Part shown: positions 38,086 through 41,957 of the stretch, one piece after another | Numbering within the stretch: the first letter of the stretch is position 1 | How the letters are laid out: each line of letters opens with the position of its first letter | Assembly: GCF_000311865.1 (NCBI RefSeq) | Contig: NZ_HE978580.1 | Coordinates: forward strand, 438,673-502,672 | Direction of reading: 5' to 3' | From: Peptoniphilus obesi ph1 | GTDB taxonomy: Bacteria > Bacillota > Clostridia > Tissierellales > Peptoniphilaceae | Length of the DNA: 64,000 nt | The notes under the pieces: generated by a model | The model's database searches: none | Told to the model about the DNA's origin: nothing | The model's input: the letters and a program-made list of their open reading frames with translations, nothing else | Program-made: the position numbers and the translations under genes

Positions 38086-38161
<76 letters not shown>

Positions 38162-38164
38162 AAA

Positions 38165-38241
38165 TGGTGGGCCTTCAGGGACTTGAACCCCAGACCTACC
38201 GGTTATGAGCCGGGCGCTCTAACCAACTGAGCTAAAGGCCC
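38165..38241 (-). tRNA. tRNA-Met (CAT), elongator; Ile2 not excluded
   Basis: 77 nt with encoded CCA. Acceptor GGGCCTT / GAAGGCCC region, D-arm TAGCTCAGTTGGTTAGAGC, anticodon loop CTCATAA with CAT, T-arm GGGTTCAAGTCCC. It lacks initiator features. The CAT anticodon could be modified to lysidine and read AUA, since the body also resembles bacterial tRNA-Ile2. Confidence 0.9.
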
Positions 38242-38248
38242 TCACCAT

Positions 38249-38340
38249 TGGCGGAGAAAGAGGGATTTGAACCCTCGCGACCCTAAATGAGCCCTACTCC
38301 CTTAGCAGGGGAGCCTCTTCAGCCTCTTGAGTATTTCTCC
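38249..38340 (-). tRNA. tRNA-Ser (GCT)
   Basis: 92 nt with encoded CCA. Class II tRNA with a long variable arm, acceptor GGAGAAA / TTTCTCC, anticodon GCT in CCCTGCTAAGGG, T-arm GGGTTCAAATCCC. First of the three tRNAs in this cluster. Confidence 0.97.
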
Positions 38341-38514: not shown

Positions 38515-40308
38515 TTAGTCTTTAATTTCTGTCCCGCTTCCCTCAGGATTATTAGTATTTAAGACTCTAATGGTAATGTTTTTATCCCTAACTGGTTCTA
38601 TTGCATCTTTTTGATAAACTCTGGCTCCAGAATCTATAATTTCATCTAGTTCTGTGTAACTCAAATTATTATATTTTTTTGCATTTTTATTTTTATTTGG
38701 ATCATCCGTCATTATCCCATCAACATCTGTCCAGTTTTCATAGACTTCAGCATCCAATGCCCCTGCTATTATTGATCCTGTATAATCTGATCCACCTCTT
38801 GCAAATGTGACAATTCTTCCCTTATTGTCCCTTGCATAAAATCCTGGAACTACAACTTTTTCACCTTTTTTGATATTTTCTCTTATTTTTTTATAAGTTT
38901 TTTCTTTATCTAATTTCCCGTCTTTATCTAAGAATATTAAATCTTTTGCATCTAAAAATTTATAATCTAAGTATTTAGCCATAAGTTTTGCATTTAAATA
39001 TTCTCCCCTGCTCAAGATAAAGTCTTTAGAATCAGAATCGTAAATATCATCAAAGGTAATGTCTATATCAGTGTTTGTCTTTTTATCAAGTTTTAATTCT
39101 AGAGCTATTTCTTCAAAACGATCTTTTGCCTGCTTATTAGTTTTTTCTAAGTGTTTTCTTGTATCTTTTATTTGTTTTTTTATTTCTTTTAAACTATCTT
39201 CTAAGAAATTTATTTGACTTTTGTATTTATATATATCAAGCAATTTGTCAGTTACCTTGAAATCTCTTATATCTCTTTTCCCCGGTGCTGAAACGACTAT
39301 AACATCTCTTTTTTCATCATTGACTATATTTTTTACTTTTGTAAATTGACTAGAATCTGAAAGTGATGATCCACCAAATTTAGATACATTTTTAATTTTT
39401 ATATTTTCTATATTGTAAGGAGTTTCTTGGTAAACGCAATAGTTTATCCAGTTTGAGAAAAATAAGTTGCCAGCAGCCTTCCATTTCATCATAATTTTAT
39501 TGTTGATATCATCATCAAAATAATAATTTTTTGGAATTTGTATATCCTTGTTTTTAGCAAGGTCTCTTATATATTCATTGTGTAAGGTATCTCTGTCATA
39601 TTCCCAATGCCCAAATGAAAATATAAGTCTATTGTCTTTTGTTGTTACTATTCCAACGCCAGTGTCTGGTCTTGAAGATATTATTTTTAAATCCTTATGT
39701 TTTTCTACTTCTTTTTCATCTACATAGGTCCATCTTGATTGTGGAACTGAAAATACATCATCAAAACCCTTAACTAGCTTGTCATCTTGAAGTTTTTCAA
39801 AGTCATATACCCCAAATATCTTTTTATCTACAAAATCATTTTTAATTCCGTAGTAGTGGTAAAGGGCTGCTTGAGCTGACCAGCAAATGAACATTGTAGA
39901 GAATACATTTTCTTTTGCAAAATCGAAAATTTCCTTTAATTCTGACCAATATTTAATCTTTTCATAGTCTAAAAGTTCCACTGGTGCACCTGTAAATATC
40001 ATGGCATCATATTTTGTGTTTTTTATCTCATCAAATGTCTTATAAAACTTTTCTAGGTGCTTGTGAGAAGTGTTTTTTGGATTGTGGCTTCTCATTCTTA
40101 CTAGGTCTATATTTATTTGTAGGGCTGTGTTTGATAGAACTCTTATTAATTGAAGTTCTGTTTCTTCTTTTTTTGGCATTAGATTTACAATTGCAATTTT
40201 TAGAGGTCTGATATCTTGGCTATCAGCTCTTTCTTGGTCCATTGTAAATATTTTTTCTTCTTTTAAAACACTTTCGCTAATAAGATCTTTTGGTATTATT
40301 AAAGGCAT
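38515..40308 (-). CDS. Fusion of homoserine O-acetyltransferase (MetA) and aspartokinase without ACT domains
   Basis: 597 residues. Residues 1-300 are MetA: nucleophile Cys in FICWSAQAALYHYYGI near 142, His and Glu in FSFGHWEYDR near 232. Glu in TGAPVE near 111 marks acetyl- rather than succinyl-CoA use in the family. Residues about 305-597 are the aspartokinase catalytic domain: KFGGSSLSDSSQF near 309, SRGEYLNAKLMAKYL, FARGGSDYTGSI and YENWTDVDGIMTDDP. The protein stops at NNPEGSGTEI, where other aspartokinases begin their ACT domains, so no lysine/threonine feedback site is seen. 15 bases after metY, in the same Met T-box operon. Confidence 0.93.
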   Translation of the reverse strand: MPLIIPKDLISESVLKEEKIFTMDQERADSQDIRPLKIAIVNLMPKKEETELQLIRVLSNTALQINIDLVRMRSHNPKNTSHKHLEKFYKTFDEIKNTKYDAMIFTGAPVELLDYEKIKYWSELKEIFDFAKENVFSTMFICWSAQAALYHYYGIKNDFVDKKIFGVYDFEKLQDDKLVKGFDDVFSVPQSRWTYVDEKEVEKHKDLKIISSRPDTGVGIVTTKDNRLIFSFGHWEYDRDTLHNEYIRDLAKNKDIQIPKNYYFDDDINNKIMMKWKAAGNLFFSNWINYCVYQETPYNIENIKIKNVSKFGGSSLSDSSQFTKVKNIVNDEKRDVIVVSAPGKRDIRDFKVTDKLLDIYKYKSQINFLEDSLKEIKKQIKDTRKHLEKTNKQAKDRFEEIALELKLDKKTNTDIDITFDDIYDSDSKDFILSRGEYLNAKLMAKYLDYKFLDAKDLIFLDKDGKLDKEKTYKKIRENIKKGEKVVVPGFYARDNKGRIVTFARGGSDYTGSIIAGALDAEVYENWTDVDGIMTDDPNKNKNAKKYNNLSYTELDEIIDSGARVYQKDAIEPVRDKNITIRVLNTNNPEGSGTEIKD

Positions 40309-40322
40309 TTTTTTCTCCTATC

Positions 40323-41594
40323 TTATGCTCTTAAAGCATTATCTATATCTTCGATAATATCTTCTACATTTTCTATTCCAATAGATAGTCTAATTAAGTT
40401 TGGACTTATTCCTGTCTTTTCTAATTCTGCATCTGATAATTGTCTGTGAGTTGAAGATGCTGGGTGCAAAGCATATGATCTAACATCTGCAACATGGACA
40501 ACTAAGGATACTAAGTTTAATGAATCAATAAATTTAGCTGCTTCTTCTCTTCCACCCTTGATTCCGAATGAAATAACACCGCTGCCACCTTTTAAATATT
40601 TTTTTGCAAGTTTATAGTCTTTGCTAGATTCTAGGAAAGGATATCTTACAAATTCTACACTTTCGTGACTTTCTAAGAATTTTGCTACCTTAAGAGCATT
40701 TTCTGAATGTCTTTCTAGTCTAAGAGCTAGGGTATCAATTCCGATTAAGGTTAAGAAGGCATTAAATGGTGCTGCAATATTTCCAAAGTCTCTTAGGTAA
40801 ACTGTTCTTATCCTTGCAGCGTAGGCAGCTGGTCCAAATTGTTCTGTAAATACTAGACCATGATAAGATTCATCTTTTTCTGTCAATTGTGGATAATTTC
40901 CTTTTGTCCAATCAAATTTTCCAGAATCAACTATAAGTCCTCCCATTGAAGTTGCATGTCCATCAAGGTATTTTGTTGACGCATAAGTTACTATGTCGCA
41001 ACCATAATCAATTGGTCTAACTAGGGCTGGTGTTGTCAATGTATTATCAAGTATTAGCGGAATATTGTGTGAGTGAGCAAGGTCTGCATATTTTTCTATG
41101 TCAAGAACTGCTGTTGTTGGGTTGGCTAAAACTTCTCCAAATATTAATTTTGTTTTTTCGTCTATATTTCTTTTAGCTTCTTCAAGGTCATTTGATGAAA
41201 CAAATCTTGTTTCTATTCCAAAATTTTTTAAAGTACTCCCAAGTAGGTTAAAGGTTCCGCCGTAAATATTATTTAAAACTACAATATTGTCTCCAGCTTT
41301 TGTTATATTTAAAATTGCATTTAAGTTTGCTGATTGTCCAGATGCTGTTGCTACTGCAGCAACTCCTCCATCAAGGGCTGCAATTCTTTTTTCAAGTGCA
41401 TCAACTGTTGGGTTTCCTAGTCTCGTATAGAAAAATCCTGCACTTTTTAAATCGAATAAGTCTGCTACTGTATCTGTATTATCATATTTAAATGTTGTAG
41501 ACTGAACTATTGGGACAACTCTTGCTTCCCCATTTTTTGGATCATATCCAGCTTGCACACATAATGTTTCTAAATTTTTAAATTCTTTACTCAT
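40323..41594 (-). CDS. metY: O-acetylhomoserine sulfhydrylase (MetY)
   Basis: About 423 residues, PLP enzyme of the Cys/Met metabolism family making homocysteine from O-acetylhomoserine and sulfide. Seen: QSTTFKYDNTDTVADLFDL, YTRLGNPTVDALE near residue 60, the PLP Lys in YASTKYLDGHATSMGG near 205, and LHPASSTHRQLSDAEL near 375. The ATG at 41594 has GGAGG; longer readings run into the T-box leader. First gene of the operon; the product of MetA encoded next is its substrate. Confidence 0.95.
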   Translation of the reverse strand: MSKEFKNLETLCVQAGYDPKNGEARVVPIVQSTTFKYDNTDTVADLFDLKSAGFFYTRLGNPTVDALEKRIAALDGGVAAVATASGQSANLNAILNITKAGDNIVVLNNIYGGTFNLLGSTLKNFGIETRFVSSNDLEEAKRNIDEKTKLIFGEVLANPTTAVLDIEKYADLAHSHNIPLILDNTLTTPALVRPIDYGCDIVTYASTKYLDGHATSMGGLIVDSGKFDWTKGNYPQLTEKDESYHGLVFTEQFGPAAYAARIRTVYLRDFGNIAAPFNAFLTLIGIDTLALRLERHSENALKVAKFLESHESVEFVRYPFLESSKDYKLAKKYLKGGSGVISFGIKGGREEAAKFIDSLNLVSLVVHVADVRSYALHPASSTHRQLSDAELEKTGISPNLIRLSIGIENVEDIIEDIDNALRA

Positions 41595-41900
41595 TTTATT
41601 TCCTCCAAATTTTTTATTTGACAGCTTTAATGAGAAATAAAAAAGAGCTCTCATCCTAAAAGGACGAAAGCTCGTGTTACCACCTTTATTTATTATATGC
41701 TCGCACATATAAACTCATCAAGTACCATCATACTCTATTGCTATAACGGGCAAACCCGAAATCATCTAAATAATTCGACAATTCCTAAAAAAAGACCATG
41801 TTCACTGACTTCTAATCTCCTTCTCTCACCAAACGAAGTTCTCTGTAATCATATCCATCAACTACTCTTCTTTTTATAAAGTTTATTTATCTTGTTGCTT
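41595..41900 (-). promoter_or_regulatory. Methionine T-box leader of metY
   Basis: About 290 nt. T-box AGGTGGTAACACGAG lies at 41671-41685 and the terminator GAGCTTTCGTCC / GGATGAGAGCTC at 41645-41673 with a T-run to 41637. The Stem I specifier region reads GTGAACATGGTC (near 41790), giving AUG, so uncharged tRNA-Met should turn on metY and the metA-aspartokinase fusion. Promoter TTGACA (41924-41929) and TAATAT (41901-41906) have 17-base spacing. Confidence 0.92.
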
Positions 41901-41957
41901 ATATTACTATTTATTTTTTGACTTGTCAAATACTTTTTTTACTTTTCATGAAAATTT

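Follow-up and report, generated by a model that had tools for sequence, protein, structure and literature searches.

A MetA–aspartokinase fusion without ACT domains in an operon preceded by a probable methionine T-box leader in Peptoniphilus obesi

Aspartokinase is the textbook example of branch-point control, which is exerted by feedback through its ACT domains. Fused aspartokinases are a known kind: in ThrA and MetL of E. coli (PRK09436, PRK09466) the kinase is joined to homoserine dehydrogenase, a later and non-consecutive enzyme of the aspartate family, and in PRK08961 it is joined to the branch-specific enzyme diaminopimelate decarboxylase. Methionine T-boxes are known too, as before the methionine biosynthesis genes metICFE of S. 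aureus (PMC3771891). In the 64,000-nucleotide stretch of the Peptoniphilus obesi ph1 genome analysed here (the window), we identified a gene that joins MetA to an aspartokinase, in an operon that is likewise preceded by a T-box but differs from metICFE. This fusion differs from ThrA and MetL in that the partner is MetA and lies at the N-terminus, no ACT or other regulatory region is present, the kinase is nearest to the PRK09034 aspartokinases and control would be by a T-box or SAM riboswitch; from PRK08961 it differs in partner, branch and domain order. No description of a MetA–aspartokinase fusion, with or without ACT, was found in the open-access literature searched. The features of the locus are as follows.

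38515–40308, minus strand: MetA–aspartokinase fusion gene (ORF, Pfam, 30 family orthologues)
39411–40308, minus strand: MetA (HTS) domain, residues 1–299 (Pfam, Foldseek, invariant residues)
39390–39414, minus strand: interdomain linker, approximately residues 299–306 (pLDDT <50)
38518–39387, minus strand: aspartokinase catalytic domain, residues 308–597 (Pfam, 3tvi boundary, Foldseek)
39097–39252, minus strand: predicted long helix, residues 353–404 (DSSP on the model)
40323–41594, minus strand: metY, O-acetylhomoserine sulfhydrylase, first gene of the operon (TIGR01326, PF01053)
41645–41673, minus strand: intrinsic T-box terminator, a 13-pair stem followed by TTTTTTATTT
41657–41886, minus strand: T-box leader with AUG specifier and T-box sequence GGTGGTAACACG (RF00230)
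41901–41929, minus strand: promoter-like TTGACA-17-TAATAT 5' of the T-box (consensus match only)

The fusion gene starts 14 bp after metY, with a Shine–Dalgarno-like AGGAG immediately 5' of its ATG, and encodes 597 residues with no internal stop. Pfam analysis of the product detected HTS/MetA (PF04204) at residues 2–298, over the complete profile (1–298) and with 410 bits against a cut-off of 27, and AA_kinase (PF00696) at residues 308–584 with 145 bits. Neither an ACT family along the 597 residues nor a homoserine dehydrogenase domain was matched by Pfam, and the protein thus falls outside the AK–HSDH (ThrA/MetL) class. The predicted structure (AlphaFold2, 22 fused proteins, that of Acetoanaerobium being left out) had a mean pLDDT of 88, and its sole very weak stretch was residues 299–306; with a pTM of 0.52, the relative placement of the two halves in this model is unreliable. 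In the Foldseek search, the MetA half matched 2h2w and 2vdj (target TM-scores of 0.95 and 0.91, respectively), and the kinase half matched aspartokinase structures including 3tvi. These matches suggest that the gene encodes a bifunctional enzyme, combining homoserine acyltransferase (step 4) with an aspartokinase (step 1) that lacks ACT domains. One chain carrying two non-consecutive steps of methionine synthesis had been proposed from the sequence-only reading, and both the Pfam matches and the orthologues described below bear this out.

Full-length orthologues of the fusion were found in 30 of 130 genomes of the family, including three of the four genomes of the genus; they are spread over nine genera, share 51–76% identity, and nearly all end at approximately residue 598. 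An assembly artefact or a frameshift that joins two separate genes was ruled out by the same junction and end in these 30 separate genomes, and its probability is negligible. Broken copies, detected in two family genomes (G041, L128; G015, L129), are recognisably different; that of G041 is broken into two frames (419 and 174 residues) behind an intact-looking T-box. Two other apparent MetA fusions were discarded, one of 592 residues (L130), whose N-terminal part appears to be metY read out of frame, and one of 906 residues (L195), whose N-terminal part has no Pfam match. Within the order, no ACT-less fusion was seen beyond the family; outside the family it was found in Acetoanaerobium noterae and in genome G690, and the same pair of domains with ACT occurs in family f20. 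The domain pair, which the first reading suggested looking for, recurs across genomes.

In the MetA half, Glu111, Cys142, Lys163, His234 and Glu236 are invariant in 23 fused proteins; the catalytic Cys, His and Glu of MetA/HTS enzymes and their Lys are thus present as C142, H234, E236 and K163. The acetyl model of NCBIfam (NF047918) gave 427.5 bits, under its cut-off of 460.5, and scored better than the succinyl model (392 bits, cut-off 495). Glutamate at position 111 favours acetyl-CoA as the donor. Because of this residue and of the O-acetylhomoserine-type MetY encoded in the same operon, O-acetylation is likely, which would make the MetA half a homoserine O-acetyltransferase, the acyl donor being deduced from these features. 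It resembles the homoserine O-acetyltransferase MetA of B. cereus (2ghr, 2vdj) over the whole domain, with approximately 47% identity, the same catalytic residues and Glu111; the B. cereus enzyme, however, stands alone.

The closest solved structure to the kinase half is the C. acetobutylicum aspartokinase 3tvi (approximately 42% identity by Foldseek). The alignment with this 446-residue protein ends at its residue 276, opposite residue 595 of the 597 in the fusion, and the kinase half stops at the boundary where the ACT domains of 3tvi start, as had been claimed. Since the gap between the stop codon and the tRNA gene at 38340 is only approximately 175 bp, there is no room for an ACT pair 3' of the fusion. 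The nucleotide and aspartate motifs of aspartokinases are present on the AA_kinase fold; K310, F311–G313, S315, S340, T353 and G435–E436, together with F490, R504–D508, T527–V529 and D536–P537, are invariant in the 23 fused proteins. With the motif residues of both halves invariant, the two active sites are intact at the sequence level, in agreement with the earlier description. Because the C-terminal ACT region is missing, as judged by Pfam and by the end of the chain, this half corresponds to the catalytic domain of an aspartokinase rather than to a full regulated aspartokinase. Its best-scoring aspartokinase model, and closest family, is PRK09034 (NF006540), with 259–262.9 bits; the cut-off of 434 is missed because the ACT part of the profile is absent from the fusion. 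The fusion thus misses the NCBIfam cut-offs for both halves, which leaves a gap in annotation.

Compared with 3tvi and the PRK09034 relatives, which carry ACT, the fused kinase not only ends earlier but also has a segment approximately 18 residues longer, predicted to form part of one long helix. Between the TD and R(F/Y) motifs, 29 of 32 fused kinases have 42 residues, whereas 51 of 52 measurable unfused ACT aspartokinases have 24. Our guess is that the lengthened helix (352–404) takes part in assembly. As separate observations, three tRNA genes lie directly 3' of the fusion in the same orientation (38089–38340), with a perfect TTGACA-17-TATAAT in between, and three tRNAs likewise follow the fusion at L103; in Gemella bergeri (L025:7992-8927), an aspartokinase frame of only 311 residues ends soon after the catalytic domain, which may reflect a truncation, a frameshift or a genuine loss of ACT.

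We then compared the fused kinases with 68 unfused relatives, almost all long enough to include ACT, at the 50 positions where at least 95% of those relatives agree. The window protein keeps 44 of these positions, and 38 are retained by at least 95% of the 32 fused kinases. The 12 departing positions, several of which fall within the C-terminal segment 551–566, might be taken to mean that the kinase half is no longer an aspartokinase but has become an accessory part of MetA, with a structural or regulatory role, or phosphorylates another substrate. We regard this as very unlikely, as the motif residues of the nucleotide and aspartate sites are invariant. The departures are strongest at positions 555 (R), 559 (Y) and 566 (H), and the common residue is retained at all three in the f20 fusion, which keeps ACT; segment 551–566 may therefore formerly have contacted the ACT region. 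Furthermore, four genomes (G024, G082, G084 and G690) have no recognisable aspartokinase other than the fused one, on the criteria of frame length and a PF00696 match. In G024, asd and hom lie directly 3' of the fusion, and this genome provides the best sequence evidence that the fused kinase is active. The genomes G082, G084 and G690 carry asd along with the fusion; no homoserine dehydrogenase (PF00742) was found in these three or in G083, the four genomes being 81–93% complete.

The product of metY scored 586 bits with TIGR01326 (cut-off 495) and also matched PF01053. Its start is probably 41594 (GGAGG, then ATGAGTAAAG) rather than 41708 as in the ORF list, since the longer ORF reaches back into the T-box terminator. 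The methionine T-box proposed for this operon was recovered 5' of metY by RF00230 with 77.3 bits (E = 1.8e-16), a score under the Rfam gathering score of 93; the leader contains a specifier codon, the T-box sequence and a terminator, and the specifier position reads GAAC-AUG-G. Promoter-like consensus matches such as that upstream of the leader were not clearly more numerous than in shuffled sequences. An AUG specifier T-box is present at all 30 intact family fusion loci, in the context GAA(C/G/T)-AUG-G(T/C)C. This codon was read by script at 28 loci (the 29 of the script include the broken copy in G041) and by eye at L103 and in the window; among the 30 loci, Rfam was run on the window, L103 and L114, the others being recognised by motif. 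The RF00230 scores of the orthologous leaders were 93.4 bits (L114), 100.7 bits (L193) and 77.2 bits (L103). In S. aureus, the specifier of the metICFE T-box alone did not decide the choice of tRNA (PMC3771891), and the AUG codon is therefore strong, rather than final, evidence for Met-tRNA. In the window genome, the corresponding position reads AUC in the T-box of a branched-chain transporter and UCC in that of serS.

The T-box precedes metY and the fusion in the genus and in several other genera, and lies directly before the fusion in g37 and others. A T-box was also detected by Rfam at the fusion of G690, and in Acetoanaerobium the leader before metY is a SAM riboswitch, not a T-box (Rfam). 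The gene order metY–fusion–asd was observed at L122, L123 and L193, and fusion–asd–hom at L127; at L126 the fusion is followed by a broken hom.

The window genome encodes three aspartokinases: the fusion and two with ACT (L001/L135 and L134), so that there are two ACT-bearing aspartokinases of the kind sought at the outset. Two of the three have a branch-specific RNA leader, namely, the ACT-bearing LysC (L001/L135), in a lysA–lysC–dapA operon behind a lysine riboswitch, and the ACT-less fusion, behind the methionine T-box; none was found for the third (L134). Methionine synthase of the MetE type is encoded behind an AUG T-box, and PF02574 (MetH type) was not found in this genome. Another T-box, whose specifier is AUG-like, probably lies before a transporter of the NhaC type (perhaps MetT). 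This genome uses distinct RNAs to sense Met-tRNA, SAM and lysine; the leaders and associated entries outside the window are as follows.

L135:8140-8278, minus strand: lysine riboswitch before lysA–lysC–dapA
L134:7983-8075, plus strand: SAM riboswitch before a metNIQ-like operon
L204:2766-2860, minus strand: SAM riboswitch before metK
L203:5613-6779 and L203:5322-5536, both minus strand: entries for the MetE-type synthase and the NhaC-associated T-box

In conjunction, these observations make it likely that the fusion is a bifunctional MetA with an ACT-less but competent aspartokinase, placed under a methionine T-box and run on methionine demand. With charged Met-tRNA, the leader would terminate; with uncharged Met-tRNA, it would be read through, and the fusion and MetY would be raised together. 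Read-through would then increase entry to the pathway (aspartate to aspartyl phosphate), commitment to the methionine branch (homoserine to O-acetylhomoserine) and the MetY step to homocysteine, with Asd and Hom, encoded at other sites in the genome, supplying the two intervening steps. Because it lacks ACT, the kinase should not answer lysine or threonine as ACT aspartokinases do, and would admit aspartate to the pathway according to the demand for methionine; the lysine branch would be served by its own ACT-containing LysC behind the lysine riboswitch. E. coli MetL is controlled by repression, not by feedback, and this enzyme, methionine-controlled in its expression, is comparable as a demand-run entry kinase.

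The sequence-only reading went further in two respects, each of which holds in part. The first was that T-box control replaces feedback, which fits a kinase without ACT, but feedback could still act on the MetA half. In other organisms, MetA enzymes are subject to inhibition by methionine or SAM, and aspartokinases of ACT-bearing length are present in most of the genomes. An active kinase that is still under feedback, either because methionine or SAM binds the MetA half or because another aspartokinase provides ACT domains in trans, is a reading that we hold to be doubtful rather than remote; the four genomes that contain no other recognisable aspartokinase could not lend such a domain. The second was that the kinase is dedicated to methionine. 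This fits the window genome with its three kinases, but G024, G082, G084 and G690 have no other recognisable aspartokinase, so that the fused one would supply all the aspartate-family products that those cells make.

The operons shared by the fusion, asd and hom in some genomes would also fit a fusion that mainly scaffolds a complex with Asd and Hom for passing labile intermediates, the loss of ACT being incidental. A fusion of MetA with homoserine dehydrogenase in G486 (L194:1635-3926, minus strand; 763 residues, 3' of metY), which joins consecutive enzymes, points the same way. We consider this scaffold improbable, however, since asd and hom of the window genome lie on another contig (C4), and AK–HSDH fusions also join non-consecutive steps with, to our knowledge, no channelling established.

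By a class-wide search, MetA–aspartokinase frames of 753–782 residues were identified in six genomes of family f20 (G620, G471, G249, G342, G488 and G587; loci L187–L192). They combine the same two enzymes in the same order as the window fusion. By BLAST, all six align with the entire ACT aspartokinase encoded in the window genome, and ACT_9 was detected by Pfam in the three tested; neither a T-box nor a SAM riboswitch was detected at these loci by Rfam. The f20 fusion thus keeps ACT and has no Rfam-detectable methionine or SAM leader nearby, whereas the window fusion lacks ACT and has a methionine T-box.

In the kinase tree, the ACT-less fused kinases formed one clade (100/99) and the f20 kinases another elsewhere, while joining the two was not rejected by the AU test (p = 0.167). 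In the MetA tree, a single origin of all MetA–aspartokinase fusions was rejected (AU p = 6e-10), and the best reading of this rejection is that the fusion arose at least twice. Stand-alone MetA proteins (L163, L166, L172 and L177) are nested among the ACT-less fused ones, which suggests that the kinase half was later lost or MetA replaced; because of this nesting, part of the rejection may come from these proteins and not from f20 alone.

Loss of ACT co-occurs with a methionine-sensing leader; this is essentially a comparison of two lineages, for which no statistical weight is claimed, and the difference between T-box and SAM riboswitch falls inside the ACT-less one. We tentatively propose, as a possibility somewhat short of even, that the two enzymes were fused at least twice and that, in the lineage with a Met-tRNA or SAM leader, ACT was discarded, the lengthened helix or the MetA dimer took over assembly, and control of the aspartokinase became RNA-only. 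If this is true, protein allostery was traded for RNA sensing. The ACT-less fusion and its separately evolved, ACT-bearing f20 counterpart offer a direct test of whether RNA control replaces allostery, and a naturally ACT-less aspartokinase, if active, would be of practical use in amino-acid production. Unfused arrangements of related genes were also observed: a SAM riboswitch followed by a metY–metA–hom–aspartokinase operon in G156 (L136), and metY–metF–metA–aspartokinase (with ACT)–metH in Ilyobacter (L098).
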